NCBI GenBank assembly: GCA_024636505.1 | Contig: JAGXGY010000022.1 | Coordinates: 1-64,000, forward strand | Direction of reading: 5' to 3' | Source of the DNA: Methylobacter sp. | Lineage (GTDB): Bacteria > Pseudomonadota > Gammaproteobacteria > Methylococcales > Methylomonadaceae | Length of the DNA: 64,000 nt | Part shown: piece after piece, positions 12,556 to 46,680 of the stretch | Numbering within the stretch: position 1 is the first letter of the stretch | How the letters are laid out: every line of letters starts with the position of its first letter | Translations under genes and position numbers: made by a program | Notes under the pieces: model-generated | What the model saw: only the letters and a program-made list of their open reading frames with translations | Told to the model about the DNA's origin: nothing | Database searches by the model: none

Positions 12556-12702
12556 GAGCTATATTGTCAATTTTTCGATGGAGCGAGAACGCATAAAACC
12601 GGCTATAGTCTCGGTGATATTCGCCAACGTCATAGTGGTTTTAACCGTATGAAAATAACTGGTGCCTTGCAAGCTAACCAGTTCAAAGGTATTTACCTTT
12701 GA
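12556..12702 (+). pseudogene. IS630-type transposase fragment (remnant)
   Basis: A short stretch reads GARTHKTGYSLGDIRQRH then NRMKITGALQANQF, which resembles the middle of an IS630-superfamily DDE transposase (pattern: R.HGYS..G.R, then R.nViGAL). The open frame runs 12493-12702, but only this part looks like a transposase. It ends in the palindrome at 12678-12707. No complete gene, no catalytic triad. The assignment rests on a loose remembered pattern. Confidence 0.4.
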
Positions 12703-12707
12703 ACTGG
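12678..12707. repeat. 30-bp perfect palindrome joining two transposase scraps
   Basis: Arms CCAGTTCAAAGGTA and its exact complement (14 bp each, 12678-12691 and 12694-12707) enclose TT. The plus-strand IS630-like fragment runs into it from the left and the minus-strand fragment ends in it from the right, so it may mark a recombination junction. No T tract follows on either side. Confidence 0.65.
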
Positions 12708-21017: not shown

Positions 21018-21203
21018 TTACAAAATCAACCACTTGAAGCCGCCATAAAAAGCTGCTTCAGGCATATCCCGGCCAAGGTTCTGCATCTGACGGTTATCGG
21101 TCAGGTTTTCGCCGCGCACGTATAAATTTAGTGCTGCGCTGACCGGATAACTAAAACATATAGGGAATGTTTTCAGCCCTGCCGGACAATGCTTCCAAAT
21201 CAA
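21018..21203 (-). pseudogene. TonB-dependent receptor, C-terminal remnant
   Basis: About 45 codons read LNLYVRGENLTDNRQMQN then EAAFYGGFKWLIL and stop. This is the typical last two strands of a TonB-dependent outer-membrane receptor (pattern: vrGeNLTD......pG..fy.GfkW), with a terminal hydrophobic residue. No other part of the receptor is present: upstream is the response-regulator gene. A leftover of a deletion or rearrangement next to the lpd gene. Confidence 0.65.
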
Positions 21204-22591
21204 TCCGCTATTTTCAAATGATATTTCCGCACCCGATAGCGTAATGTTTCACGGGTGGCTCCAAGGTCTCTGGCTGCGGCGGTCAGGTTGTTATCCGCCC
21301 GCTCCAGGGCGGTTTTGATAATAAAGCAATCCATATCGTCCAGCGCCATAGTGCCATCCAAGGGCAACCAAATCCCCTGTTCGGTTTGCACTGCCGAAGC
21401 GGAAGGCTGTCCGGGCAATTGCAGCCATTGTCCGGGGAAAGTCGGCCCATCGGAGAATAATACACAGCGTTCGATCACGTTACGCAACTCCCTGACATTG
21501 CCCGGCCAGTAATGCGCTTTCAGTTTATCCCACACCGCATCGGGTATGTCTTTAACCTGTCGTCCAGATTTTGCGTTATATTCGGCGACAAATAGCGGCA
21601 CCAGTTCATCCAGATCTTCTAGCGCTTCGCGTAGCGGCGGCAAGATCAGCTTGAACACGCTTAAACGGTGGTATAAATCGGCACGAAAGCTGCCGTTCTC
21701 AGCCATTTTCTCCAGATTACGGTTACTCGCGGCAACAATCTGCACATCGACCTGGATTTCTTTTTCGCCGCCCAAGCGCCGGACTTTGTGATCTTCAATC
21801 ACTTTAAGCAATTTGGCCTGCAAATCCAGCGGCATTTCGCCGATTTCGTCCATGAATAAGGTGCCGCCATCGGCCTGTTCGAGCAAACCGCGATGCCGTC
21901 CTGCGGCCCCGGTAAATGCGCCGGGTTCATGACCGAATAATTCCGATTCCAGCAATTCTCTAGGTAACGCTGCACAGTTCACTTCAATCATCGGTTGCTG
22001 GGCACGGGCACTGCCGTAGTGCAAGATGCGCGCCGCCAAGCCTTTGCCGGTGCCGCTCTCGCCGCCGATAATCAGGGCGCTGAACGGTACTTGCGTCAGT
22101 CTTACCAGCAGCTGTCGTATGCCCTGTGCCTGTTGACTATGGCCAACGTAAGCCTCCGGCGAATAACGCCGATGACCTTGCTTGGTTTGATCGACAACCC
22201 GTCGCTGAATAGACGCACTACGCGCGGCGCTGGCGACGATCAAATCAAGGCGATCCAAATCGCAGGGTTTTTCTAAAAAATCATAAGCGCCCAGCCGTAA
22301 TGCTCTAACCGAATCCGGGACATTGCCGTAGCCGGTTAAGAATAACCATTCGGTGTCGTTCGCATAGCCCACCTCTTTTTTAATCTTTTCCATGAAATCC
22401 AGCCCGTTACCATCCGGCAAATTCATATCGGAAAGAATCAGTAACGGCTCTAGTTTTTTATGCCGCAATAATTCCCCGGCCTCGGCCAAATTGGTAGCGA
22501 TCACCACCTCCCAACCGGACTGCCGATAATGACGGGATAACTCGGAACCTAACAGTTTCTCGTCTTCAATGATGAGCAGGGTTTCTATCAT
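21200..22591 (-). CDS. Sigma-54-dependent response regulator (NtrC family)
   Basis: Activator of 463 aa. Receiver domain 1-120 with phospho-acceptor Asp55 in [11 protein letters not shown] and Lys108 in LEKPCD; AAA+ domain at about 148-385 with Walker A GESGTGKG (177-184), the sigma-54 contact loop GAFTGA (224-229), Walker [11 protein letters not shown] (245-254) and arginine-finger region [10 protein letters not shown]-terminal Fis-type HTH ([20 protein letters not shown]). It thus activates sigma-54 promoters after phosphorylation. Its start overlaps the end of the sensor-kinase gene (ATGA), a cognate pair. The good -24/-12 promoter before the SulP/Ehr operon is a likely target. Final gene of the same-strand block. 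Confidence 0.95.
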
Positions 22592-24039
22592 GATTTATCT
22601 CTGTCTATGCATTTATTGGGCAACAATATGGATACGCATGCCCCATGATTCGGTTGATTACTTAGGCTGATGGTACCGCCCACATCTTTGACAAAGCGTT
22701 GCACCATAGCTAATCCCAAACCGGTGCCGCGCTGACGGCTAGTGCGAAAAGGCCTGATACCATGCTTCAGCATATCCTGAGAAAAACCGATACCGTCATC
22801 CTGTACGTCGATGCGTAATCCCTGCGGGTTGGTACGCGCTTTGATTTGAATAGTCCCTGGGTTGCCTTCCAGCGCATCGGCTGCATTCAGTATCAGGTTC
22901 AACAAAGCTTGCCGTATCCCGCTCTCAGGCAAATGCACCGGCAAGGCGCAGGGGGCCTCTATTTCCAGGCAGATGGATTCGGCAATCTGATAACGGGTCA
23001 ACGCCACCAAATCCCGAATTAGCGTCCTTACATCAAAAGCGGTGGCCTCTTCCGGCGAATGACGACTCTGATCGAGCATATCGTTCAGCAGTCTCGCCAT
23101 CCGCTTGAGTTCGGCATTAATCAAATCCAGTCTTTCCAATTGGTCTTTGTCATCAATTTCGCGGCGTAAATTGCTAAACGCCATTTGAATCCCAGCCAGC
23201 GGATTACGTATTTCATGCGCTAATTCGGCGGCGACCTCGCCTATTGCCGCCAACCGGTCGGCTCTCGCTAAACTGTATTGCTGTTCAAGCAAAGCTTGCG
23301 TGGCCAATCTGACTTCGTGTTGCAGCGATTGGGCATGTAAGCGGTTGACCTCTTCCAATTCCGCGAGATACTTAACCATGTCGTTATAGCTGATAAATAC
23401 CGGCAATAGCAGCGGATCGAGATGGTCGGTAGTGATCGGGGTAAAATTTTCTTCAGTCAACCGTTGCAGCAACTCTCTCAAATCATTAAGCGGCTGCAGA
23501 ATTCTGTAGCGCAAAAATAATACTGCCACAAACAAAATCGCCGTGAATATGGCCAGAGCCATATACAATTCGGTTTGGGTATCCAGGCTGATATTTTCCA
23601 GCAATTCTTCACGTTGTAACGCTTCGCTATCCAATGTTTCGCTCATCAGTTTAAGCGCCGCTAACAGCTGATTGTGTTGCTCTTCTTTGTCTAGTATCGT
23701 CAAATCAGCCAGCATAGTTCTGACCGTTTCCAGACTTGATCGGGTCTCCGCCGACAAATAACGCTTATCCATCATCAAAACGTCCATTTTGTCCAGGGTG
23801 TTGGTGAGTACCTCGGGATGCGAATCCGACACCGTTTCGGTTAAATATTCAATCAACGATTGCTGTAATCCCACCGATACATTTTGAATACGGTGCGAAT
23901 AATTAACATAAGAAAAAACTGTTTCAAAGTGATGTACATTCCGCCAAATCATGCCGCCGAGTATGGCAAGAGCCATCAGCAATAAACCTAAAAAGGCCAA
24001 GCCACGCAACTGGACGGGACGGTAAAAAATCGGTTTCAT
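22588..24039 (-). CDS. Membrane sensor histidine kinase
   Basis: Kinase of 483 aa, partner of the overlapping sigma-54 regulator. First membrane helix at about residues 10-32, a periplasmic, mostly helical sensor region of about 120 residues, second helix at about 158-178 (ALAIFTAILFVAVLFL), a HAMP-like linker, then the phospho-acceptor histidine in AAELAHEIRNPLAGI. The ATPase domain has the N box LILNAADAL, G1 DVQDDGIGFS and G2 RGTGLGLAMV. The signal is not evident; the periplasmic domain has no family I recognise. The gene follows the DUF2490 gene by 128 bp on the same strand, which ties it to the SulP/Ehr locus. Confidence 0.93.
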   Translation of the reverse strand: MKPIFYRPVQLRGLAFLGLLLMALAILGGMIWRNVHHFETVFSYVNYSHRIQNVSVGLQQSLIEYLTETVSDSHPEVLTNTLDKMDVLMMDKRYLSAETRSSLETVRTMLADLTILDKEEQHNQLLAALKLMSETLDSEALQREELLENISLDTQTELYMALAIFTAILFVAVLFLRYRILQPLNDLRELLQRLTEENFTPITTDHLDPLLLPVFISYNDMVKYLAELEEVNRLHAQSLQHEVRLATQALLEQQYSLARADRLAAIGEVAAELAHEIRNPLAGIQMAFSNLRREIDDKDQLERLDLINAELKRMARLLNDMLDQSRHSPEEATAFDVRTLIRDLVALTRYQIAESICLEIEAPCALPVHLPESGIRQALLNLILNAADALEGNPGTIQIKARTNPQGLRIDVQDDGIGFSQDMLKHGIRPFRTSRQRGTGLGLAMVQRFVKDVGGTISLSNQPNHGACVSILLPNKCIDRDKS

Positions 24040-24167: not shown

Positions 24168-24878
24168 TTAAAAGTTGAAAAATAACGACCCTATAACCAA
24201 GTGATTCATGGTGTTATTGGTGTGGGTGGCATCATCCAGATATTGGTTGAGATAACCCGCTTCAGCCCGGAAGCTTTTGTTAAAGGTCCAGCCCAGGCCC
24301 GCAAACGCACGATTCTGATCGAAACCGGCCTGTCCGCCGAACTTGGTTGAATTGATCCGGATGAAAAATTCGTCCCAGGTAATCAGGCTTAAACGCGGCT
24401 CGAACTCCAGAGGATGCATGAACCGCAACATCTGGCGAGGTCTAAAACGAACATCATCGCCTTGTAGGAAGTTGCTTTCGAATAGAGTTCTAAAACTGAA
24501 AGTCCCTATATCAGTGGGCAAAATATAACGAAACGCCGGCCAGACATCTTGCTGAGAAATAGTGTTCTTGCCGACATTTTGGGTAGGCACCCACGTGTAG
24601 CCAGCCCAGATAGTTGCCCGGTCGCTGAGCGAATAGCCTACCGCCGCGCGTACCACGCCTTGGTTCCAATGATTCCAGTCGTCATCGAAGCGGGATTGGC
24701 CTTCCAACCAGATACGCCCTTTTTCCAGTTTAGGGTCGATGACTTTCAAACTGCCCTCGCCTACGATTTGCAGCCAGCTACCGGCATCCTGAAGCAAGTC
24801 GTCTGCCATAGAAACCCCGCTGATAAAACCTAGACACACTGCGGTAATACCCCATAACTTCATTTTTTTCTTGATCAT
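24168..24878 (-). CDS. DUF2490 family outer-membrane beta-barrel protein
   Basis: Protein of 236 aa. Signal peptide in residues 1-25 (MKLWGITAVCLGFISGVSMA, cut before DDLL). The rest alternates polar and hydrophobic residues with many aromatic strand ends (RIWLEGQSRF, VRAAVGYSLSD, TIWAGYTWVP, PAFRYILP, LRFMHPL) and ends in LFFNF, with the terminal Phe of outer-membrane barrels. Pattern and length fit DUF2490. Function unknown. It starts 4 bp after the Ehr small-subunit gene, so it is probably co-transcribed with the complex and followed by the two-component genes. Confidence 0.75.
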   Translation of the reverse strand: MIKKKMKLWGITAVCLGFISGVSMADDLLQDAGSWLQIVGEGSLKVIDPKLEKGRIWLEGQSRFDDDWNHWNQGVVRAAVGYSLSDRATIWAGYTWVPTQNVGKNTISQQDVWPAFRYILPTDIGTFSFRTLFESNFLQGDDVRFRPRQMLRFMHPLEFEPRLSLITWDEFFIRINSTKFGGQAGFDQNRAFAGLGWTFNKSFRAEAGYLNQYLDDATHTNNTMNHLVIGSLFFNF

Positions 24879-24882
24879 ATGC

Positions 24883-25416
24883 TCACTTCTCTATATTCAT
24901 TAAACCCAACAAGCCCTGCATCAATACCAACGGCGTGGGCGGACAACCGGAAATCACCGCATCAACCGGAATGACATTAGATACTGCACCGCAACTGGCA
25001 TAAGACACGCCGAACTCGCCGCCGCAAGCCGAACAATCGCCGACGGCAACCACCCATTTCGGATTCGGCGTCGCTTCATAAGTACGAAGCAACGCTGTTT
25101 GCATGTGCCTCGACACGGGCCCGGTGACCAACAGCACATCGGCGTGCCTTGGCGATGCCACAAAATGGACGCCGAAACGCTCAATATCGTAAAAAGGGTT
25201 ATTCAAAGCATGAATTTCCAGTTCGCAGCCGTTACAGGACCCGGCATCGACGGCACGTATTGCCAAGCTTCCGGAAAACTGCCGGTCGATGTGCTGTTTT
25301 ATTTGGATGCCCAATGGCTCCAGCTCGTCCTCGTTCCCATGCTCTGCGTGGGAACGTAGGCTAAATCGTTCGGTGACGACACCCGTAGTCAGTATTTTTT
25401 TAAAGATTCTCAGCAT
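24883..25416 (-). CDS. Ehr/group 4 hydrogenase-like small subunit (NuoB/HyfI homologue)
   Basis: Peripheral electron-transfer subunit, 177 aa, carrying a single 4Fe-4S cluster (N2 equivalent). Ligands seen: Cys61 and Cys64 in GSCNGCELEIHAL, Cys128 in VGDCSACGG, Cys158 in ISGCPPTP. The conserved ERFGVHFVASPRHADVLLVTGPV matches NuoB/HyfI. The gene follows the large-subunit gene by 9 bp, with a strong AGGAAGGG ribosome site. Oddity: residues about 18-30 (FSLRSHAEHGNED) are encoded by a GTTCCCA..TGGGAAC hairpin repeat seen elsewhere in intergenic DNA, so a mobile-like palindrome has been read in frame into the N-terminus. Confidence 0.9.
   Translation of the reverse strand: MLRIFKKILTTGVVTERFSLRSHAEHGNEDELEPLGIQIKQHIDRQFSGSLAIRAVDAGSCNGCELEIHALNNPFYDIERFGVHFVASPRHADVLLVTGPVSRHMQTALLRTYEATPNPKWVVAVGDCSACGGEFGVSYASCGAVSNVIPVDAVISGCPPTPLVLMQGLLGLMNIEK
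25332..25356. repeat. GTTCCCA..TGGGAAC hairpin inside a coding region
   Basis: CGTTCCCATGC and GCGTGGGAACG enclose TCT, an 11-bp stem with one G-T pair. It lies in codons near residues 20-28 of the NuoB-like gene. A related hairpin is at 59311-59334. Confidence 0.7.
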
Positions 25417-25425
25417 GGTCCCTTC

Positions 25426-27000
25426 CTATAAATCATTGCCTGAATATGAACCATTCAGAGATTTGTTGCACACAGGAAAATCCGGCACGATATTATTCAG
25501 TACCAGTTTTTCCAACGCAGGCCAATTTATTTGGCTGGGATCGCGCGGATAAAAACGGGCGATTTTATTATCGGCATCGAAACGGATATAGCTGATGATT
25601 TCACCGCGCCAGCCTTCGACTATACCCAGCCCTTCATTACCTATCGGCGGTGTTTTCCACTCAGTGCGAATATCGCCGACTTCGAGTTGACCGATGAACT
25701 CTTCTATCAGGCGTAAAGCCGTTCTAATTTCCTTGTACCTAACCCACACTCTGGAAGCAATATCGCCTTGATTTTCCAGTGCAACCTTAACCGTTACCCG
25801 ATCATAAGGGGCATAAGGCGCATCACGGCGCACATCCTTATCTTGTCCGCTGGCACGTCCGACATAACCCAGGGTTCCAAAAGCGGAAGCTATCTCTTCA
25901 GATAAATGACCGGCCGTATACAAACGGTCTTCCAGTGATGAATTAAGATCCAGTGCAAGTATGACGTCCGCCAGTTCCACCCTTAATTCGAGTATATCTT
26001 TCTTAATCAGAGCGCAGGATTCCTCCGATAGATCGCAGGCAACGCCGCCGGGAACAATTTGATCCATTAGCAGACGATGACCGAACACCTTTGCATTCGT
26101 GCGCAACCAGAGTTCGCGCATCCGGGTAAACTGTATTTGCGCGAACACAAAAGCGACATCGTTACAGATCCCGCCTATATCGCCCATGTGATTGGCAATA
26201 CGTTCCCGTTCTGCCAGAATGCCGCGTATCAAAGCAGCGCGAGGCGGTATTTCAACATCCGCCGCTTGTTCCATAGCCATGCAGGCTGCCCAGCCGTGCC
26301 CAACTGTGGTATCGCCGGAAATGCGTCCTGCCAATCTCGCTAAAGATTCGGGAGTTCTGCCTTCGGCAATTTTCTCTATACCTTTATGTACGTAGCCCAA
26401 ACGTTCCTCCAGATTTAAGATAAGTTCGCCGACGGCCTGAAACCTGAAATGTCCCGGTTCAATAATACCGGCATGCACCGGCCCTACCGGAATTTCATAG
26501 GTACCTTGCCCATGCGATTTAATGAACGGATAATCCCTATCGGGCGGTGTGATACCGACCGGCGTACCCTGAACGGGAAAATCTTTGCGTAGCGGATAGC
26601 TGTTTTCAATCCAGGCTTGATGCCTGGTCCAACGCCTGTTATCGGGATGCCCGATAAACTTGATTCCGAACATATCCTGAGTATGACGTTCACTACGATT
26701 GGCAGCAGGATAAACCGTAGCCTGGCTTGGCAACGCTGGATTTGAAGCTTCGACAATCGTGCGCAACAGAATAGACTTCCCTTCTTTTTCAAAACAGGCA
26801 TTGACCAAAAACCGACTCTGAACTTGTTCCGCCCATCCGGCAGCCCAACGCAAGTTTTGCTGCACAGCCAATTCTGCAAAGCGTTGCCATGCGTCACTTT
26901 CGATTTGCCATAGCGTAATGGAAGCTATATCGATTTCTGAGACCCTAATATCGGCATTTAATCGACTTAAAAAATCCGCGGTCCAGTTTGAAGAATTCAT
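25426..27000 (-). CDS. Ehr/group 4 hydrogenase-like large subunit (NuoCD/HyfG homologue) without NiFe ligands
   Basis: Fused NuoC-NuoD type subunit, 524 aa. The N-terminal 160 residues resemble NuoC (AANRSERHTQDMFGI), the rest NuoD/HyfG (GPVHAGIIEPGHFRFQ, LEERLGYVHKGIEK, DQIVPGGV). In [NiFe] hydrogenases two CxxC motifs hold the metal. Here the first site reads GRISGDTTVGHGW and the second DFPVCNKSLNGSYSGNDL, so at most one cysteine remains and no NiFe centre can form. This is the hallmark described for Ehr (energy-converting hydrogenase-related) complexes. Start chosen at 27000 (MNSSNWTADF) because it overlaps the upstream stop as ATGA; an upstream in-frame start (27114) lies within the preceding gene. 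Electron donor and acceptor unknown. Confidence 0.9.
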   Translation of the reverse strand: MNSSNWTADFLSRLNADIRVSEIDIASITLWQIESDAWQRFAELAVQQNLRWAAGWAEQVQSRFLVNACFEKEGKSILLRTIVEASNPALPSQATVYPAANRSERHTQDMFGIKFIGHPDNRRWTRHQAWIENSYPLRKDFPVQGTPVGITPPDRDYPFIKSHGQGTYEIPVGPVHAGIIEPGHFRFQAVGELILNLEERLGYVHKGIEKIAEGRTPESLARLAGRISGDTTVGHGWAACMAMEQAADVEIPPRAALIRGILAERERIANHMGDIGGICNDVAFVFAQIQFTRMRELWLRTNAKVFGHRLLMDQIVPGGVACDLSEESCALIKKDILELRVELADVILALDLNSSLEDRLYTAGHLSEEIASAFGTLGYVGRASGQDKDVRRDAPYAPYDRVTVKVALENQGDIASRVWVRYKEIRTALRLIEEFIGQLEVGDIRTEWKTPPIGNEGLGIVEGWRGEIISYIRFDADNKIARFYPRDPSQINWPALEKLVLNNIVPDFPVCNKSLNGSYSGNDL

Positions 27001-28460
27001 AACGGCATACTCCCTGAAATTAACAACGTCGCCTGTGAAAACCAATTCGCCAGAAAACCGGGGATAGCCAAACCCAGCCAAAGCACCAAAGCCAGATGTA
27101 GGGTAACCGGCCATAAGTTGGCTTTAATCGCTTGCTGACCTTCGGGTTTATCGCCATACACCATCGGCTGGATATGCCTGAACAGTCCGGCAAAGGCTAT
27201 ACCAATCCCCAACAACAAGAACGGCGCTAACCACGGATAACTGCGCATGGTCGCCAGCAGCACCAGAAACTCGCTGGTAAACACACCGAACGGCGGAAAT
27301 CCGGCAATGGCAATGGTGCCGATCAACAGGCCCCAACCGATCTTGGGCTGGGTTTTTATCAAGCCGCGTATCTGGTCTATACGCTGAGTTCCGGCAAGCT
27401 GAGCCGCATGACCTACGGTCACAAAAATGGCCGATTTGGTCAGCGAATGCACAGTCATATGCAATAAGGCGGCAAATGTCGCTAGCGGACCGCCGATGCC
27501 GAACGCAAAAGTCATCAGCCCCATATGTTCGATAGATGAATAACTGAACAGCCGTTTAATATCTTTTTGTCGGTGCAACAATATTGCGGCCACCAGAAAC
27601 GACAGTAGACCGAAACCCATCATCAGGTAACCTGCCATATTGGAATCGGTCGCGCCATCCACCAGCATCTTATTACGCACTACCGCGTACAAGGCGTCGT
27701 TTAACAGCAAGCCCGACAATACCGCCGACATCGGCGTAGGGCCTTCGGAATGCGCATCGGGCAACCAGTTATGCAAAGGCACTAAGCCGATTTTTGTGCC
27801 GTAACCGATCAGTAAAAAAACAAAAGCAATCTCAAGGATTTCCGGATTGAGTTGACCGGCATTTTCATAAAGTACCGACCACAACAAGGCATTCTCGCCA
27901 TCGCCGATTTGCACCGCCGCGTAATACAGCAAAATAGTGCCGAATAGCGCTTGGGCAATGCCCACGCCGCACAATATAAAATATTTCCACGCCGCCTCAA
28001 TCGACTCAGGCGTGCGATACAAACTAACCAACAGCACAGTTGCCAGCGTCGCGCCTTCCATCGCCACCCACATGATGCCCATATTATTGGTGGTCAACAC
28101 CAGATACATGGCCAGCATAAACCCCTGAAACATCGAGTAATATAGCTTTAAGCGTCTATCGGTGAGTTTGCCTATCTCTTTTTCATGGGCCATATAGGGC
28201 GATGAAAATATCGAAGTGGTTAAGCCGACAAAAGCCGTCAACACAATCAAATAAACATTAAACGAATCGATTAAAAAAGCCTTACCCGATGAAATTATCG
28301 TGCCCTGATTGAGTACATTAATCGCCAGCCAGATAGTCGCCAAAAAGTTGGCCCCATTGAAACGAATGTTAAGTTTTCCGGTGTCTGTTCTATGTCCGGC
28401 CAGCGCAAAATAAACGATGCCGATTAACGGTATTAACAACACTAAATAAGCGGCAATCAT
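26997..28460 (-). CDS. Ehr/Hyf-like antiporter subunit (NuoN/HyfF homologue)
   Basis: Polytopic inner-membrane protein of 487 aa, related to NuoL/M/N and Mrp antiporters, likely to move protons or cations when the complex turns over. About fourteen hydrophobic segments. Characteristic strings: MGIMWVAMEGATLATVLLV (a Glu in helix 5), KIGLVPLHNWLPDAHSEGPT (the Lys/His-bearing helix and loop), RLFSYSSIEHMGLM and HSLTKSAIF, all matching HyfF/complex I antiporter signatures. Start and stop overlap the neighbours (ATGA with 28457-29134 upstream and with the large subunit downstream), indicating coupled translation. Confidence 0.9.
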   Translation of the reverse strand: MIAAYLVLLIPLIGIVYFALAGHRTDTGKLNIRFNGANFLATIWLAINVLNQGTIISSGKAFLIDSFNVYLIVLTAFVGLTTSIFSSPYMAHEKEIGKLTDRRLKLYYSMFQGFMLAMYLVLTTNNMGIMWVAMEGATLATVLLVSLYRTPESIEAAWKYFILCGVGIAQALFGTILLYYAAVQIGDGENALLWSVLYENAGQLNPEILEIAFVFLLIGYGTKIGLVPLHNWLPDAHSEGPTPMSAVLSGLLLNDALYAVVRNKMLVDGATDSNMAGYLMMGFGLLSFLVAAILLHRQKDIKRLFSYSSIEHMGLMTFAFGIGGPLATFAALLHMTVHSLTKSAIFVTVGHAAQLAGTQRIDQIRGLIKTQPKIGWGLLIGTIAIAGFPPFGVFTSEFLVLLATMRSYPWLAPFLLLGIGIAFAGLFRHIQPMVYGDKPEGQQAIKANLWPVTLHLALVLWLGLAIPGFLANWFSQATLLISGSMPL

Positions 28461-29134
28461 TGATCCACCTCGTGTAACTTGTTTAACTGATCGACATCCA
28501 GAGAATCAATACTGGTGCGGATATGTAAGAAAAAGATGCCGAATAGTACCGCTGCCACCAGTACGTCAAACGCGACCCCTAATTCAACGACCATAGGCAT
28601 ACCGTTGGTAGCGACGATAGCGGCGAAAAACAAGCCGTTTTCTATCGACATAAAACCGACCACATGAGCGATAGCTTGTCGATGCGAAATCATTAGCAAC
28701 ATGCCCAACAACACAACCGATAAGCTGACCGCCAAGGCATTCAACATGACCACCGATGAAGATTGCACGATAGGATGCAGCACGTAATAACTGAATACCA
28801 TCAGACTGGCACCGCCCAGCATCACAACCGTGTTATTTTTTAATGCTTCAATATCGCGATGCATATTCATCTGCATAACCTGCCGTCTTAACATCCACGG
28901 GATAAAAATGACTTTCAACACAAAAGTCAGTACCGCAGAAATATACAAATGATGGTTATTTAGGCTGTAGGCCGCTACCGCCGTCGTCAGAGTCAATAAA
29001 AAACCCTGCATCGCAAACACAAAAATCAGCCGAAGCAATCGCCCCTGCCCTAACATAAGAAACGAGGTCAGTCCCACCAATGCAGCCATGGATAAAATGG
29101 CTTGCGTATAAAAATCAAGTTGCCCGATATTCAT
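28457..29134 (-). CDS. Ehr/Hyf-like membrane subunit (HyfE homologue)
   Basis: Integral membrane protein of 225 aa with six to seven hydrophobic helices, resembling HyfE of hydrogenase-4 (NuoK-like core: ISHRQAIAHVVGFMSIENGL, then FAAIVATNGMPMVVELGVAFDVL, whose Glu residues are typical). The C-terminus is short and polar. It lies between the NuoH-like gene (172 bp upstream, the gap holding a repeat) and the NuoN-like gene (overlap ATGA). Its presence and order B-C-E-F-G-I match hyf operons, but HyfA, HyfD, HyfH and hydrogenase maturation genes are absent here. Confidence 0.85.
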   Translation of the reverse strand: MNIGQLDFYTQAILSMAALVGLTSFLMLGQGRLLRLIFVFAMQGFLLTLTTAVAAYSLNNHHLYISAVLTFVLKVIFIPWMLRRQVMQMNMHRDIEALKNNTVVMLGGASLMVFSYYVLHPIVQSSSVVMLNALAVSLSVVLLGMLLMISHRQAIAHVVGFMSIENGLFFAAIVATNGMPMVVELGVAFDVLVAAVLFGIFFLHIRTSIDSLDVDQLNKLHEVDQ

Positions 29135-29306: not shown

Positions 29307-30251
29307 TCATCTCGATGCCTCCAAAATAATATGGCTTAACATCCCCAGCAAGCCTAATAGATAGGCGAAACTCAAATATTCCTGCACTCGAAACAAGCGC
29401 ATTTTTGCCACCAAAGTTTCGGACACTGCCAGAATCATCGCCAATACGGCAAGCTTGCCCATAATAGCCAGCAAGCCGTAGCCCAGAGCTTTAACAGCAA
29501 AAGTTTCTGCGATACCCCAAGGAAAAAAGATATTGGCGATCAGTACGCCATACAACATCAACTTTAACTGACTCGCCCATTCAATCAGCGCCAGATGTCG
29601 TCCGCTGTATTCGAGAATCATCGCCTCATGAATCATGGTCAGCTCCAAATGCGTCGCCGGATTGTCCACGGGAATGCGCCCGGTTTCAGCGACGGCAACC
29701 AATATCAACGCCGATAAAGCAAAGACAAACGACGGCCTTAAAACCAAGCCCTCATTCAGCACATGAGCGATGGCAAACGATAAATTGGTGGTCGAGGCGG
29801 TCATAGTTAGGGTAAAAATAGCCATCAACATTGCCGGTTCCGCCAGCGATGAAATGGTCATCTCCCTTGAAGAACCCATGCCACCGAATGCCGTGCCAAT
29901 GTCCAAACCGGCCAGCGCCAGAAAGAACCGGGCAAAAGCAAAAAAACCCACCATCACGATCACATCAGCACTGGCCGAAGTCGGTAAATCGACCGCAATC
30001 AACGGCACAACAGTTGCAGCAAGCACCGTTGCCGAAAAGATAATGTACGGCGCTTTAATAAATAACCACGAAGCCTGTTCCGACACTACCGGTTGTTTAT
30101 GCGTTAATTTAATCAAATCCCGGTAAGGCTGAAAAATAGACGGCGCTTTACGGTTCTGTAGCCGACATTTGCAGTATTTGATCCAACCTGCCAATAACGG
30201 GGCCAGTGCGACAAACAACGTGGTTTGTAAAATAGCGATTAACCAATTCAT
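29307..30251 (-). CDS. Ehr/Hyf-like membrane subunit (NuoH/HyfC homologue)
   Basis: Membrane subunit of about 314 aa, homologous to NuoH/HyfC/HycD, which connects the peripheral arm to the membrane antiporters. Seen: about eight hydrophobic helices, the cytoplasmic loop KCRLQNRKAPSIFQPYRDLI, the conserved GTAFGGMGSSREM and AETGRIPVDNPATHLELTMI segments. The start at 30251 (MNWLIAILQ) is chosen because it overlaps the upstream stop as TGATG with GGGTGATC nearby; an upstream in-frame start at 30392 lies inside the previous gene and encodes no membrane-like sequence. It follows the NuoL-like gene directly. Confidence 0.9.
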   Translation of the reverse strand: MNWLIAILQTTLFVALAPLLAGWIKYCKCRLQNRKAPSIFQPYRDLIKLTHKQPVVSEQASWLFIKAPYIIFSATVLAATVVPLIAVDLPTSASADVIVMVGFFAFARFFLALAGLDIGTAFGGMGSSREMTISSLAEPAMLMAIFTLTMTASTTNLSFAIAHVLNEGLVLRPSFVFALSALILVAVAETGRIPVDNPATHLELTMIHEAMILEYSGRHLALIEWASQLKLMLYGVLIANIFFPWGIAETFAVKALGYGLLAIMGKLAVLAMILAVSETLVAKMRLFRVQEYLSFAYLLGLLGMLSHIILEASR

Positions 30252-32377
30252 CAGCTGATCACCCATAACAAAATAATTAAGGTCACAAACGAATAGCCCA
30301 GATAAACCCGGACATTCCCCGTTTGGATGCGTCCTACGACTTTGGCAAGCGTGTTTACCCCCTGTGCGATCGGGTCGTACAAACGCGGCCAACTATGATC
30401 ATGAATCTGCAAGCGATAATGAACCGCCGCAACGTCTTGGTTCATTGCGCCTTGCATGTCTTTGTCGATCTGCTCGTCGATAATCCAGACTTTGGCAAAA
30501 ATTCGTCGAAACGGCATGGTAAAAGCGCTGCTGCTGTATTGCATGCGATGCGTTAAGCCGCCGAAACCGCAATCCCAGGTTTCAGCTGTACGTATCGCCG
30601 TTGCCGGATTACGGCGCAAATACCAAAAACTGATACAACCGGCAATCAGCGCACCGATCAGCACTAATAGCGGGGAATAAGAAGCTTGGGCCTTAGCAAC
30701 CGGCGCCAGCCACAACCAACCCAAAGCGGCATCATTGGGCAAGGTTTCGCCCAACAATTGCCCGGAAACATTGTTAATCAAACTAATGATCAGGCCGGGA
30801 AAAATACCGAACAAAAAGCATAAACCGGCTAGCAGAGACGTTCCGGCAAGCATGCCTTGGTCTTGTATCTCGCGAGCTTTCTCGCAATGATGCGACCGAG
30901 GCAAGCCCAAAAAGATCAAGCCGAATACTTTGACAAAACAGGCCGCAGCTAATGCCGCCGTCAGCGCTAATGCAGCGGCAGCGACCGGTATCAAGCTGCG
31001 CAATACACCGTTGTCCAGCACATCGACCTGCAATGCGGTTTGAAACGCCAGCCATTCGGAAACAAAGCCGTTAAACAACGGTAATGATGAAATGCTCATA
31101 CAGCCGATCAAAAATAACGCACTGGTTTTGGGCATCTTTTTAATCAACCCGCCCATCATATCGATATTCAATTCATGGGTTTGATGATGAATAATCCCCG
31201 CTCCCAAAAACAGCAAGTTCTTGAACAAAGCATGATTAAAGGCATGCAGTAACGCCGCCAACAAACCCAGCGCCGCCAATTGCGGATGACCGTTAGCCAT
31301 AAAAATCATCGACAAACCCAACACCATAAAAATAATACCGATGTTTTCGACCGAACTGTAAGCCAAAAGCCGCTTTAAATTGGTCTGCATCATCGCGTAC
31401 AAAATACCGCCCAATGCCGAGAACGTACCCAGTATCAACAACACCACGCCCCATTGCCAATGGACATCGCCTAGCAAATCAAAGCAGAAACGGATCAAAC
31501 CATAGACGGCAACTTTCAGCATCACCCCGCTCATTAACGCCGAAATATGCGAAGGCGCAACCGGATGCGCCTCCGGCAGCCAGACATGCACTGGAACGAT
31601 TCCCGCCTTCATGCCGAAACCCAGCAGCGCCAAAACAAAGGCGATGCTGGCCCAGCTAGTCGATAATTTAGCCTCGCGCAAGGCATCGAAAGTAAAGCCA
31701 TCGCTAAAACCGGCCAGTACGCCGAAGCCCAGGATAATGGCTAAAGCACCGACTTCTGCCATCAATAAGTAAATAAAAGCGGCGCGGCGATTGGCAGAAT
31801 TTTCGTGCTGGAAGGCCACCAGAAAATAACTGGCAACCGACATCAATTCCCAGGCAATCATGAAAAAGAACGCATCATCAGCCAGCAGCACCAGCAACAT
31901 CCCGGCAACAAATAGCCCGGTAAACAAGCCCAAGACCGCAAACGGATGCTGACTTTCGTCGTAACCGTTCACATAGCCCGGCCCGTAAAGACTGATCGCA
32001 CTGGTGGCAATACCGACGATTAAAAAGAAAAAACCGGACAAGCCGTCGAAACGAACATGCCAGGGCAGCCAAGGTAATCCCAAGCTAAGTTGATCGGTAA
32101 TCACCTTGTTACCGATCAATACACTCAACCCGGCCAGTATCGCAACAACACCTGACAAACCGAGTAAAACAAACACCGCCTGCCGCAACATAATCGGAAA
32201 CGGCTTTTCATCCAGATTGTCGGCAATTACCGACTGAAAACCTTCCTTGCAGCCCGGGAATTTGTTAAACCAATATTGACTAAACTCCTGCAGATGTTGG
32301 CGTTGATTCATCATCAGCGCCAACAACCCGGAAGCAAAGCTTAAAAGAACTGCGCTATAAGCGAATAAAAGAGTCAT
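30251..32377 (-). CDS. Ehr/Hyf-like antiporter subunit (NuoL/HyfB homologue)
   Basis: Large antiporter-like membrane protein, about 708 aa, related to NuoL and HyfB. About fourteen core helices plus a C-terminal extension (630-700) rich in charged residues before a last helix. Signatures: FFMIAWELMSVASYFLVAF (helix 5 Glu), MKAGIVPVHVWLPEAHPVAP, RLLAYSSVENIGIIFM and HAFNHALFKNLLFLGAG. First gene of the Ehr core, 65 bp after the SulP gene. The start 32377 (MTLLFAYSAVLL) is preferred over the upstream ATG at 32431, which adds an unrelated peptide and lies beside a hairpin. Confidence 0.9.
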   Translation of the reverse strand: MTLLFAYSAVLLSFASGLLALMMNQRQHLQEFSQYWFNKFPGCKEGFQSVIADNLDEKPFPIMLRQAVFVLLGLSGVVAILAGLSVLIGNKVITDQLSLGLPWLPWHVRFDGLSGFFFLIVGIATSAISLYGPGYVNGYDESQHPFAVLGLFTGLFVAGMLLVLLADDAFFFMIAWELMSVASYFLVAFQHENSANRRAAFIYLLMAEVGALAIILGFGVLAGFSDGFTFDALREAKLSTSWASIAFVLALLGFGMKAGIVPVHVWLPEAHPVAPSHISALMSGVMLKVAVYGLIRFCFDLLGDVHWQWGVVLLILGTFSALGGILYAMMQTNLKRLLAYSSVENIGIIFMVLGLSMIFMANGHPQLAALGLLAALLHAFNHALFKNLLFLGAGIIHHQTHELNIDMMGGLIKKMPKTSALFLIGCMSISSLPLFNGFVSEWLAFQTALQVDVLDNGVLRSLIPVAAAALALTAALAAACFVKVFGLIFLGLPRSHHCEKAREIQDQGMLAGTSLLAGLCFLFGIFPGLIISLINNVSGQLLGETLPNDAALGWLWLAPVAKAQASYSPLLVLIGALIAGCISFWYLRRNPATAIRTAETWDCGFGGLTHRMQYSSSAFTMPFRRIFAKVWIIDEQIDKDMQGAMNQDVAAVHYRLQIHDHSWPRLYDPIAQGVNTLAKVVGRIQTGNVRVYLGYSFVTLIILLWVIS

Positions 32378-32404
32378 GAAAATCTCACTATTGGAAAATA
32401 TGTA

Positions 32405-32436
32405 TATCGTTGCCACGCTTAGGCTTGGCAACGATA
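32405..32436. repeat. Hairpin between SulP and the Ehr genes
   Basis: Perfect 11-bp arms TATCGTTGCCA and TGGCAACGATA with a 10-nt loop. No T tract, so it may be an mRNA-processing or attenuator-like structure, or another small genomic repeat, rather than a full terminator. Confidence 0.6.
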
Positions 32437-32442
32437 CAAGTC

Positions 32443-34128
32443 TTACACGCCATAATGATCACTTCTACGGCGACTCATGTTGTTACGCTTCATTCTTCGT
32501 GCCGCCAAAGGGTGTTCAGAAAAGGTGTCATGATATTCCATGCCGAAAAACTGACATTGCCCACCCTGCCCTTCATAGTTATGTTGAAAATCATGAATAA
32601 ACTCCATCACGGTATGATCGATCAAATAAGCGTTATTCAGTTGAAACATAACCCTTTTGCCATTTTCCAGATTGGCAAGAGCCGTTTTTAAAGACATGAA
32701 GTTCGAGAAAATCGCAGCGCCGACTATCGATACAACAACCGTTTCGGTATCTTTCTGCTCAATAACAAAGTGAATCTTGAACAGATTATTCGGCCTGACC
32801 CCGCGTAACATATGAATAGCGAACTTGGTTAAAATTCCGATGCCGACACCGATTAATAAATCGGTTGCCAATATCCCGATAATCGTCACGACGAACATAA
32901 ATAACTGCTCTTTACCAACCCCCATGACTTTAGCGAATTCTTTAGGCGAAGCCAGACGAAAACCGGTAAAGACCAGTAGTGCAGCCAACGAAGCGAGTGG
33001 AATACTGTGTATCAAGCGCGGAAACAACACCACGAACAGCAATAATAATATGCCATGAAAAAAGTTGGCCCAACCGGTCTTTGCCCCATTGTTGACGTTG
33101 GCCGAACTCCGCACGATTTCCGCTATCATCGGCAAACCGCCAATTAAACCGGCCACCAGATTACCTGCACCCACTGCGGTTAAATCACGATCAAGATTAG
33201 AATGACGTTTATACGGGTCAAGCTTATCGACTGCCATTGCACTGAGTAAACTTTCAAGACTGCCCACCAAACAAATGCTCACCACCGCTTCCCAAAACTC
33301 AAGGGTTGCAGCTTTTGAAAAGTCGGGGAAATAAAAGCTGGACATGAAATTATCGGAAATTGCGACCAAAAATTTCGGCCCAACAGTTGCCTCGTGATGT
33401 GGCAAAAAATGGGCGTCCGGCAAAAACAAATACATGTGTTCATGTTGCAAATCGAAATACCGAGCCAACCCCATGCCAACCAGCACCACGATAAGCGGGG
33501 CCGGGATCATCTTTAAAGTTGGGTTTTTTATGACCGACCAGATTATCAATATCACCAATCCTAATCCGCCGATAATGGCAATATCCGGATTAAGATTAAC
33601 AATACTATGTGGAATCTGCGCGATAGTCGAAAACAGGCTACTGCCTTTTTCCGGCGAAGTCCCCAGTACTACGTTGATTTGCTTGGCCATGATAATAATA
33701 CCAATAGCCGCCAACATGCCGTGAACCACCGATGCCGGAAAAAACGAACTCAGCCGCCCCGCCTTAAAAAAACCCATCAGAATCTGTAACATACTGGCAA
33801 CAACAATGGCAGCCAGCGTATAGCGGTAACCAGCCATCGCATCGCCTGCGCCCAGTTCCTGCACCGCGCTCAGAATGACTACAATTAACCCGGCTGCCGG
33901 GCCGTTAATAGTAACAAATGACCCATTGACACGTGAAACCAGCACCCCACCGATAATAGCCGTGATAATACCGGCCATCGGAGGAAAGCCGGACGCCATT
34001 GCTATACCCAAACACAGTGGCAACGCAATAAGAAAAACCAAAAAACCGGATAGCAAATCGCTACGCCAGTTTTCTTTTAAACCGGCTAAGCCTAACTTCG
34101 GCAACCCAGACGGAGACGACTCGCTCAT
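32443..34128 (-). CDS. SulP family inorganic anion transporter
   Basis: Inner-membrane transporter of 561 aa (SLC26/SulP family), which takes up sulphate, bicarbonate or related anions, usually with Na+ or H+. Seen: N-terminal LKENWRSDLLSGFLVFLIALPLCLGIA, the NGPAAGLIVVILSAVQEL repeat, AGNLVAGLIGGLPMIAEIVRSSANVNNGAKT, about 12-14 helices in total, and a C-terminal STAS domain at about 440-520 (VVVSIVGAAIFSNFMSLKTA). The substrate cannot be read from sequence; bicarbonate is suggested by linkage to an NDH-1-like complex, but that is inference. First gene of the locus, directly behind the sigma-54-type promoter. Confidence 0.92.
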   Translation of the reverse strand: MSESSPSGLPKLGLAGLKENWRSDLLSGFLVFLIALPLCLGIAMASGFPPMAGIITAIIGGVLVSRVNGSFVTINGPAAGLIVVILSAVQELGAGDAMAGYRYTLAAIVVASMLQILMGFFKAGRLSSFFPASVVHGMLAAIGIIIMAKQINVVLGTSPEKGSSLFSTIAQIPHSIVNLNPDIAIIGGLGLVILIIWSVIKNPTLKMIPAPLIVVLVGMGLARYFDLQHEHMYLFLPDAHFLPHHEATVGPKFLVAISDNFMSSFYFPDFSKAATLEFWEAVVSICLVGSLESLLSAMAVDKLDPYKRHSNLDRDLTAVGAGNLVAGLIGGLPMIAEIVRSSANVNNGAKTGWANFFHGILLLLFVVLFPRLIHSIPLASLAALLVFTGFRLASPKEFAKVMGVGKEQLFMFVVTIIGILATDLLIGVGIGILTKFAIHMLRGVRPNNLFKIHFVIEQKDTETVVVSIVGAAIFSNFMSLKTALANLENGKRVMFQLNNAYLIDHTVMEFIHDFQHNYEGQGGQCQFFGMEYHDTFSEHPLAARRMKRNNMSRRRSDHYGV

Positions 34129-34165
34129 AAAAATCCTCGTAATGATAAAATTATATCGAGGACTA

Positions 34166-34181
34166 TGCGATTAGTATGCCA
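34166..34181 (-). promoter_or_regulatory. Sigma-54 (-24/-12) promoter of the SulP/Ehr locus
   Basis: The minus strand reads TGGCATACTAATCGCA: GG at -24 and GC at -12 with exact canonical spacing (consensus TGGCAC-N5-TTGCW). Transcription would start near 34155, giving a leader of about 27 nt before the SulP ATG at 34128. The locus itself encodes a sigma-54 activator. Confidence 0.7.
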
Positions 34182-34258
34182 AGCCTATTTTACTCATACA
34201 ACAAACTGATTTTATTTGTTATTTTTATTATTCACCCAAAAAAATCCGACAGCTTTAA

Positions 34259-34293
34259 GGTGCAAAACAACCGGTCGGTTGTTGTTTTGCACC
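34259..34293. promoter_or_regulatory. 35-bp palindrome, candidate activator-binding site
   Basis: Arms GGTGCAAAACAAC and GTTGTTTTGCACC (13 bp, perfect) around a 9-bp centre. It is 78 to 112 bp upstream of the -24 element, where sigma-54 activators usually bind. No T tract follows, so it is not a typical terminator. Binding of the downstream regulator is inferred. Confidence 0.5.
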
Positions 34294-34556
34294 GATGCCG
34301 AAAAAATTATTGCGGATTTAAGCGCCTATATTGGTGACGAGGCTTTATTTTATGTGAATTACCCTGTCCTTTAGGTCAAGGCGCCTACTTTTGGCTTTCG
34401 TGCTTTTTGCGGACTGACTGCGGCTTTTAGGATTACGCGAAACACATAACTGCTGATTTCTTTAAATCGTTAACCAGCCTTGGAAGCTTGCTTCGACATG
34501 TGCGTCTATCAGTGTCGGGTTACGCATTACGGCTAGCGTTTAAACCAAGCTGCACC
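34294..34556. other. Gap between the SulP promoter region and the efflux operon end
   Basis: No gene, tRNA or clear terminator recognised. Both flanking operons are on the minus strand: the efflux operon ends at 34557 and the SulP operon begins to its left. Confidence 0.4.
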
Positions 34557-35993
34557 TTATTCTGTTTTATTTAAATCAAGGTTCGATTCCCAACCGCCGC
34601 CCAAAGCCTTATACAATGTTACCAACGCAGTCGCGGTGGCGGTTTCACTCTGGGCCAGACGATCCTGATCTTGTAATAGACGCAATTCGACATCCAGTAC
34701 CGTCAGAAAGTCGCTCACGCCCTCCTCAAAACGCAGATGAGCCAGATCACGCGCTGTTTCGCTGGCCTGAGCCGCTGAGACCAGCAAATTTCGCCGGATA
34801 CGCTCCCGATTGTAATTCACCAGAGCGTTTTCCGTTTCTTCCAAAGCGCTCAACACCGTCTGTTGGTATTGGGCCAGGCTGGACTCGGCACGGGCATCTG
34901 CGGCCTTGATACGTGCATACACACGCCCCAGGTCAAATGCTGCCCAACTGATTCTTGGACCCAGGGAATAGGCATCTGAACGAGCCGCCCCTATACCGGT
35001 AAAGGTGCTGGCCTCTAATGCGATGGTGCCGACAAAGGTAACGCGCGGAAACAGGTCGGCGGTAGCAACGCCGATACGGGCAGTCGCCGCTGCCAGAGTC
35101 CGTTCGGCGATGCGGATGTCGGGGCGGCGACGCAACAATTCCGCCGGTCGACCGATATAGATGGTCTTGGGAATCTTGGGTAGCGACGCAGTCTGCGACA
35201 ATTTCTCTGTCAGAGCGCCGGGCAACTGTCCGGAGAGTACGCTGAGCCGGTGCATAGTTTGATGAATAGCGCTTTCCAGCGGCGGAATGGTCGCCAGGGT
35301 GGAATCGAGCTGAGCTATTGCCCTTGATGTATCGAGTTCGGTACCGCGCCCGCCTTCGAGTCTGACACGGGTTATTTTCAGTGTTTTAGTCTGATTTTCA
35401 GCGTTGTTTTTTGCCGTTGCCAACTGGTTTTGCAGGCCTCGCAATTCAAAATAATTTCTGGCTACTTCGGCGATCAGGCTGACGCCGAGATCCCGAAGAC
35501 TGGCTTGCTGCGCATCGACTTCATCGCTGCTCGCTTCCACGTCGCGGCGCACGCGGCCAAAAAAATCGACTTCCCAAAAAGCGTCGAAACCGATGTTGTA
35601 GAGCTTCAGTTCGCGCGGCGCGAAGTCCCTGTTGCTCATAGCGCCGAAACTGCGTTTCTGATCGATATAATTGGCGTGCGAGCTGACGATAGGCGCCAAA
35701 TTCAGCCCCGCTTCCATATACAAAGCCCGTGCCTCGCGAAGATTGGCTCGAGCGGCCTGAAGATTAAGATTATGCTGTACCGTCTGATCGACAAGTTCCG
35801 TTAGGCTCTTATCTTCAAACAGCTTCCACCATGCCACTTCAATATCCTGTTCAGAAAACTCCGGGTTATCGGCATTGACGAAAGCTGAACCGGTATCGGT
35901 TGTCGGCATCTTATAATCCGGACCTACCGCGCAGCCGCTGAGTACCGCTGTACACAGCAAGGCTAAGCCGAAAATCCGGCTACGTTCAAGCAT
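34557..35993 (-). CDS. RND efflux outer-membrane channel (OprM/NodT family)
   Basis: TolC-like outer-membrane lipoprotein, about 478 aa, exit duct of the efflux pump. Seen: lipobox LLCTAVLSGC followed by AVGPDYKMP (typical NodT/OprM mature start), two long coiled-coil repeats (DQTVQHNLNLQAARANLREA and ETENALVNYNRERI), and RRRPDIRIAERTLAAATARIG. An ORF extending to 36146 overlaps the pump gene by ATGA, but its first 51 codons contain the interspersed repeat at 36020-36062 and would bury the lipoprotein signal; the ATG at 35993 gives a normal signal peptide, although neither start has a good ribosome site. Third gene of the operon. Confidence 0.88.
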   Translation of the reverse strand: MLERSRIFGLALLCTAVLSGCAVGPDYKMPTTDTGSAFVNADNPEFSEQDIEVAWWKLFEDKSLTELVDQTVQHNLNLQAARANLREARALYMEAGLNLAPIVSSHANYIDQKRSFGAMSNRDFAPRELKLYNIGFDAFWEVDFFGRVRRDVEASSDEVDAQQASLRDLGVSLIAEVARNYFELRGLQNQLATAKNNAENQTKTLKITRVRLEGGRGTELDTSRAIAQLDSTLATIPPLESAIHQTMHRLSVLSGQLPGALTEKLSQTASLPKIPKTIYIGRPAELLRRRPDIRIAERTLAAATARIGVATADLFPRVTFVGTIALEASTFTGIGAARSDAYSLGPRISWAAFDLGRVYARIKAADARAESSLAQYQQTVLSALEETENALVNYNRERIRRNLLVSAAQASETARDLAHLRFEEGVSDFLTVLDVELRLLQDQDRLAQSETATATALVTLYKALGGGWESNLDLNKTE

Positions 35994-46650: not shown

Positions 46651-46680
46651 GACATCGAATGCTGCTAAGCATTCGATGTC
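46651..46680. terminator. Hairpin between convergent zapE and Lon-like genes
   Basis: Perfect 13-bp stem GACATCGAATGCT/AGCATTCGATGTC with a 4-nt loop (GCTA). It is 43 bp past the zapE stop and 47 bp past the opposite gene's stop. T tracts are weak (AAGTTTAAG), so it is a likely but not textbook bidirectional terminator. Confidence 0.55.

Follow-up and report, generated by a model that had tools for sequence, protein, structure and literature searches.

In Escherichia coli, the hyf operon is controlled by HyfR, an FhlA-like sigma-54 activator without a receiver domain. The locus described here resembles this system in that Hyf-type genes would stand under a sigma-54 activator encoded at the operon end, but it differs in having a two-component regulator, in having a SulP gene in first place and in having lost the nickel ligands. 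It could also be likened to the NtrC/ZraSR-type activators, with which it shares the receiver, the AAA+ domain with GAFTGA, the Fis-type helix-turn-helix (HTH), what appear to be paired dimer sites, an IHF-like site and a -24/-12 promoter, whereas its site is of the form GGT-N8-ACC, and we know of no published regulator with such a site.

Two further systems concern inorganic carbon. DAB2 (DabA-DabB) is an inorganic-carbon pump in which a complex-I-family subunit is linked to the uptake of CO2 (PMC13144422). Two relatives of our locus (L025, G034) have dabA and dabB-like genes next to the same clusters, whereas the operon studied here lacks DabA and combines SulP with a complete Hyf-like complex. 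In the M. capsulatus beta-CA3-SulP operon, which resembles our locus in containing a methanotroph SulP, that protein has been proposed as a bicarbonate importer, but it pairs with a beta-carbonic anhydrase, and the available part of that paper mentions neither sigma-54 control nor a Hyf complex (PMC11423575). Among the literature matches listed (titles and starts of abstracts, mostly without subscription journals), there was no paper on the operon, the regulator or the site, and no described role for the gene set was found. The architecture of the sigma-54 module is of a known kind, and the regulator most likely binds it, as judged by comparison of related loci; none of the listed matches dealt with the site, the regulon or the composition of the operon.

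Gene content of the locus

The window, as we call the whole stretch of DNA analysed (64,000 nucleotides), has its closest named relatives among contigs of Methylobacter (Methylococcales), and its Hyf-like large subunit is 95% identical to that of Methylobacter sp. BS150m-G31. The genome from which it comes (G000) amounts to 2.83 Mb in 69 contigs, is 86.7% complete, and contains one match to rpoN as well as open reading frames (ORFs) that we take to encode IHF-alpha-like and IHF-beta-like proteins. The genes of the cluster are the following, in the order from the first to the last:

32443..34128, minus strand, SulP family anion transporter, first gene (Pfam PF00916, E 3.4e-62)
30251..32431, minus strand, HyfB-like proton-pumping subunit; opens with TTG at 32431, with an internal ATG as a possible true start (Pfam PF00361)
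29307..30392, minus strand, HyfC-like (NADHdh) subunit; the true start is probably internal (Pfam PF00146)
28457..29134, minus strand, HyfE-like subunit, a name that we presume from position and recall (no Pfam match)
26997..28460, minus strand, HyfF-like proton-pumping subunit (Pfam PF00361, PF00662)
25426..27114, minus strand, HyfG-like large subunit with all four nickel-ligand cysteines replaced (Pfam; alignment to 7z0s_E)
24883..25416, minus strand, HyfI-like small subunit (Pfam PF01058)
24168..24878, minus strand, DUF2490 protein (Pfam PF10677, E 1e-47)
22588..24039, minus strand, histidine kinase (Pfam HisKA, HATPase_c)
21200..22591, minus strand, NtrC-type response regulator (Pfam; motif inspection)

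The initial annotation had placed a GAFTGA-bearing activator at this locus, and the gene at 22591-21200 does combine a receiver, a sigma-54 AAA+ domain with GAFTGA and a Fis-type HTH; the histidine kinase and the DUF2490 gene are also part of the cluster. When the large subunit is aligned with HycE of formate hydrogenlyase (7z0s_E), RVCGICGFAH corresponds to RISGDTTVGH and CYSCTD to SYSGND. We take the cysteines of the two CxxC motifs of HycE to be those that bind nickel, and the large subunit of the window does not have these nickel-holding CxxC pairs, which mark the [NiFe] hydrogenases of group 4 (Hyf). Since all four nickel cysteines are lost, the Hyf-like complex should not be a hydrogenase, and it may instead work like a complex-I-type pump.

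Promoter and paired sites upstream of SulP

Four regulatory features were delineated ahead of the SulP gene:

34280..34293, minus strand, predicted activator dimer site 1, 14 bp, GGTGCAAAACAACA, GGT-N8-ACC type with the last base degenerate (aligned among relatives)
34259..34272, minus strand, predicted activator dimer site 2, 14 bp, GGTTGTTTTGCACC (aligned among relatives)
34199..34211, minus strand, IHF-like site AATCAGTTTGTTG, between activator sites and promoter (recurs in same-genus promoters)
34166..34182, minus strand, -24/-12 (sigma-54) promoter TTGGCATACTAATCGCA (conserved in relatives, rpoN present)

Read on the minus strand toward SulP, the palindrome formed by the two activator sites (34293-34259) is followed by the IHF-like site (34211-34199), the promoter (34182-34166) and the ATG of SulP at 34128. 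The -24/-12 element lies where the initial annotation had put it and has the exact spacing claimed, with GG and GC 10 bp apart. It is of the TGGCAC-N5-TTGC type and fits YTGGCACGNNNTTTGCW, which we take as the sigma-54 consensus, at 10 of the 14 specified positions and departs from it at four. Sigma-54 starts lie about 12 bp past the GC, and transcription is expected to start near 34155. Matches to TTGGCAYNNNNNTNGCW number three in the window against a mean of 0.4 in 10 shuffles, and the other two are located at 4644-4660 (+) and 33479-33463 (-), one of them within sulP.

A perfect 35-bp palindrome with 13-bp arms, 78 bp upstream of the -24 element, had been proposed as the enhancer. The sequence GGTGCAAAACAACAACCGACCGGTTGTTTTGCACC is indeed present at 34293-34259 (minus), with a 9-bp centre and the 78-bp gap to the GG, but instead of a single element it is best read as two 14-bp GGT-N8-ACC dimer sites, which lie 21 bp apart from centre to centre and jointly make up the palindrome. 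Its form alone is weak proof, because the window has four perfect inverted repeats of this kind including this one (arms of at least 13 bp, loops of up to 15; mean 0.05 in 20 shuffles). The idea that the palindrome is unique in the window was ruled out by the other three, which have arms of 13-14 bp and lie at 6740-6778, 12678-12707 and 46651-46680. Within its own genome the 13-bp arm, with at most one mismatch, occurs at ten places, two of which are the arms themselves, and the inner core with 10-bp arms occurs at one place only.

The division into two sites is best seen in relatives. In a distant family (G040, G029, G035), whose large subunit is 58-61% identical to that of the window, the 14-bp units have 9 bp between them, for example GGTTGAAATCCACC-N9-GGTGGATTTCAACC. 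Units in reversed orientation occur in L145 and L146, which fits two quasi-palindromic GGT-N8-ACC sites over one large palindrome, and Methylomonas loci carry plain tandem sites, for example GGTTTAAACCAGCC-N7-GGTTTAAACCAACC in L030. A single 35-bp dimer site was rejected because the 32- and 37-bp forms, together with these plain tandem 14-mers, favour two sites. Changes that preserve the dyad were also observed, namely GGTTC...GAACC in L147 and GGGGCAAATCAACC...GGTTGATTTGCCCC in L024. The centre-to-centre spacing in 39 strict modules is 21 bp in 25, 23 bp in 10 and 18 bp in 4.

A module was counted as strict when both 14-mers had at least five of the six end bases, their summed score was at least 14, and TGGC[AC]-N8-GC followed 40-100 bp further. 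By this rule 38 modules were found in 911,559 bp of related loci (a figure that includes a few stretches twice), against none in 10 dinucleotide shuffles, so that the site stands above chance because it is conserved. One of the 38 is that of the window, 28 come from protein-query loci (two of these, in L030, overlap and share one promoter) and nine from motif-chosen loci (L150-L154, L228, L233-L235); as the genomes are related and some loci were chosen by the motif, these counts are not independent. Of the 29 modules from the window and the protein-query loci, 27 precede SulP, hyf, carbonic-anhydrase, dabA or kinase-regulator genes, with a small gene intervening between module and kinase in L236, and the other two (L231, L240) lie ahead of a different gene near the kinase-regulator pair. 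At L231 10297 and L240 8579, the pair GGTTGAAAAAAACC-N9-GGTTTTTTTCAACC occurs with GTGGCATGGAAATGGCT, and the downstream gene has, by eye, no evident carbon role. A site pair with TTGGCCTTATAATTGC at 77-78 bp was also noticed at L151 6749-6783 and L233 2932-2898 in the Methylobacter-group genomes G011 and G014, between genes that we presume to be arnB-like and arnC-like, and this arn-like cluster is a possible further target.

Orthologues of the window genes have the module ahead of them in several families of Methylococcales, and it is also present in locus L010 of M. tundripaludum SV96. Methylobacter contigs share the palindrome, an AT-rich stretch and the -24/-12 element ahead of SulP, but not the flanks. 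Mean column conservation in 15 aligned promoters was 0.91 for the pair, 0.86 for the promoter and 0.81 for both the IHF-like site and the leader, and the less conserved parts were the rest between sites and promoter (0.66) and the upstream DNA (0.57); this alignment took 15 of 24 upstream regions and left out L018, L021, L024, L026, L027, L028, L144, L145, L146 and L149, partly as too distant. L149 is a same-genus promoter without the IHF-like site, and it is covered by the count that follows, which includes all same-genus promoters: 19 of 21 have [AT]ATCA-N5-TT[AG] at a distance of 29-31 bp ahead of the GG, and it was not found in L149 and L234, nor in most loci of other families. The window site has one mismatch to a consensus like WATCAANNNNTTR, which we take to be that of IHF. 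Matches with at most one mismatch lie between enhancer and promoter in 21 of 39 modules, which are related sequences, against a mean of 4.4 and a maximum of 9 in base shuffles. This is likely a DNA-bending (IHF) site.

A perfect hairpin could form at the palindrome, and with three other such inverted repeats in the window one might read it as an RNA or terminator hairpin, or as the site of an unrelated repressor, next to a -24/-12 element that is incidental. This is highly improbable, since the palindrome lies upstream of the promoter, the second site ends 53-100 bp from the first G of the -24 element (73-89 bp in 33 of the 39 strict modules) and the flanks differ between relatives, and since other families (L030, L143) have two sites that do not form one large palindrome. 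The RNA hairpin or terminator in particular was rejected on the scan of 34100-34600, which gave no terminator and no sigma-70-like promoter, and on the lack of any Rfam match in the window. What the comparative evidence supports is an activator element lying upstream of a sigma-54 promoter.

Association of the module with the NtrC-type regulator

Among 41 genomes, matches to the regulator (E up to 1e-90) were found in 28 and to the kinase (E up to 1e-40) in 30. The large subunit (E up to 1e-190) and the regulator occur together in 24 of them, the large subunit only in three, the regulator only in four and neither in 10 (Fisher 1.7e-4, not corrected for kinship). Two of the three genomes with the large subunit only (G003, G018, G035) have the kinase, and G035 has regulator fragments; among those with the regulator only (G002, G004, G005, G009), G002 and G004 carry SulP with the module. 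In G004 only a fragment of the hyf large subunit was found, and its SulP, module and kinase-regulator genes adjoin, which suggests that this genome has lost the hyf genes. The stretch concerned (L155 7243-12434) shows SulP and module beside the large-subunit remnant, with convergent kinase-regulator genes. Ten of 12 more genomes, chosen by the large subunit, have a regulator at least 58% identical, and no module was found upstream of SulP or hyfB in Crenothrix sp. D3 (L028) and a Methylicorpusculum metagenome-assembled genome (L029), both without the regulator.

SulP was searched for in 17 genomes, nine of which had matches. The regulator-positive ones (G005, G042, G045, G051) have the module in three of nine SulP loci (G042, G045 and G051, strict only in G051), and the regulator-negative ones (G021, G024, G038, G048, G049) in none of seven, where close SulP/hyf orthologues are limited to G048 and G049 and the SulP of G021, G024 and G038, 39-58% identical and scanned over about 4.6 kb each, may be paralogues. 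Over all DNA scanned, 29 of 38 regulator-positive and none of five regulator-negative genomes contain the strict module (Fisher 0.002), in a comparison between related genomes with unequal amounts of DNA and with some motif-chosen loci; all three genomes with a kinase or large subunit but no regulator by the threshold used contain it as well. The nine regulator-positive genomes in which it was not found gave relaxed matches (G039, G042, G045), a half-site (G001) or no match (G005, G009, G026, G043, G052); G009 yielded no close SulP or hyf gene, and the DNA scanned from G026 did not cover the region upstream of SulP or hyf. The HTH core RETLRY is found in all rows of the regulator alignment, and the following R is K in G026. 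In regulator-positive genomes, SulP genes apart from the hyf operon also carry the module.

Orthologues of the regulator (57-66% identical) were found outside the order in 14 of 367 other genomes, from a class sample of 369 that included G000 and one more genome of the order with a match. A slightly looser rule gave two modules in the 252,088 bp around them and none in 20 shuffles. In L279 the module immediately precedes the kinase gene, in L288 it lies ahead of a small gene that comes before the kinase, and no module lies near the regulator in the remaining 12 of 14 loci. Within 10-20 kb around each of the 14 orthologues there was no close relative of this SulP, of the hyf genes or of the Dab genes; L279 and L280 have no more than a distant SulP (21-23% identity). 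These modules tie the site to the regulator where no adjoining SulP-hyf operon is seen, and suggest that self-regulation recurs.

The initial annotation had read a closed loop from the DNA, with the activator as the last gene. The window lineage has the gene order that such a loop would need, with kinase and regulator after the operon (G000 and G014), but the loop is not general, because 14 of the 16 same-genus genomes with both operon and regulator have the regulator on another contig or, in G012, more than 30 kb away. The order operon-kinase-regulator recurs in G040, G029 and G035 (the G035 regulator matching in part), and the SulP-kinase-regulator cluster of G027 and G039 carries sites. For four kinase genes away from the operon (L139, L155, L156, L157), no site pair was found in the upstream DNA read, which was 183 bp only in L156. 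Autoregulation would accordingly be recurrent and not universal, and in the window it would depend on presumed read-through of the 128-bp gap between DUF2490 and the kinase.

The distance between operon and regulator in most same-genus genomes, together with the several NtrC-type proteins that relatives encode per genome, would also suit a sigma-54-dependent promoter at which another NtrC-type activator binds the pair and the regulator of this locus acts elsewhere. We regard that as unlikely, since the module is found in none of the five genomes without this regulator, yet G048 and G049 encode other NtrC-type proteins, and since the same sites precede the kinase-regulator genes outside the order and the clusters of G027 and G039. 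Paired dyad sites upstream of the promoter track the presence of the regulator, and the element is tied to it by their co-occurrence, by SulP modules away from hyf, by absence in regulator-negative genomes and, beyond the order, by sites that precede the genes of the regulator itself. It is very probable that this is a sigma-54 module with the locus-encoded regulator as its likely activator, with two-site geometry and looped activation.

The mechanism that we infer would begin with a two-component system, in which the kinase (24039-22588) and the regulator (22591-21200) would respond to a signal, presumably through phosphorylation. Dimers of the regulator would occupy the two 14-bp GGT-N8-ACC sites, which are separated by about two helical turns, and would give rise to an AAA+ oligomer, IHF would bend the intervening DNA at 34211-34199, and the GAFTGA loop would remodel sigma-54 RNA polymerase at 34182-34166. 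The transcript would start near 34155 and cover SulP, the genes of the Hyf-like complex and DUF2490; in the window lineage it probably extends into kinase and regulator, which would create a positive loop.

Possible functions of the operon

Carbonic anhydrase or DabAB genes replace SulP or stand alongside it in some relatives, which points to inorganic-carbon uptake. An alpha-carbonic anhydrase takes the first position in G023, where SulP is a remnant. The hyf genes of Methylovulum miyakonense (L025) are directly followed by genes for DabA and a DabB-like protein, which have a site pair to themselves and a weaker -24/-12 element. In G034, dabA and dabB come after the series DUF2490, kinase and regulator; they have a module and lie next to a divergent SulP. 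A second SulP is found in five loci (L011, L013, L014, L021, L024), and biotin-dependent carboxylase genes come after DUF2490 in G028. In L139, the carbonic-anhydrase ORF has its first ATG ahead of the -24/-12 element, so that a later start must be assumed. The common long DabA was considered as a regulon member and rejected, as only two of the 30 DabA loci scanned (L224, L227) have a module; the DabA of L227 is a shorter form, and so is that of L224 as far as its truncated gene shows. The L224 module points toward the divergent neighbour SulP, and no module was found at the short-form DabA locus L226.

Some observations speak against a pure carbon role. In three loci beyond the order (L284, L289, L290), CydD is the neighbour of the kinase-regulator pair, cytochrome-bd subunit I-like genes (below the curated cut-off) are found in L284 and L290, and a weak CydB-like gene lies near the pair in L280, neighbours which suggest that the signal may be respiratory. 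The want of close SulP, hyf or Dab relatives around the 14 orthologues, and the modules that precede other genes in L231, L240, L151 and L233, likewise count against the carbon reading. It is conceivable, though the less favoured possibility, that SulP carries another anion and that the Hyf-like complex serves respiration or redox balance under such a signal; the alpha-carbonic anhydrase in first position in G023 speaks against it, as do the DabA and DabB-like genes, which in L025 lie directly downstream and are served by a separate site pair, and which in G034 adjoin the kinase-regulator genes and have a module. On balance we lean toward the operon serving energised uptake of inorganic carbon.

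Our results raise the broader possibility, put forward tentatively, that Methylococcales have a dedicated sigma-54 two-component inorganic-carbon regulon, in which tandem GGT-N8-ACC sites would govern SulP, a nickel-free complex-I-like pump and in some cases carbonic anhydrase or DabAB, and which would be switched on when CO2/bicarbonate or the respiratory state demands. With this analysis, a gene set recurring in methane-oxidising bacteria, in which a hydrogenase-derived complex without its nickel site and a transporter would be joined under one switch, can be assigned a named regulator and a DNA signature by which to search for it. If the operon is a carbon pump, it would bear on how methanotrophs get CO2 for several carboxylations.
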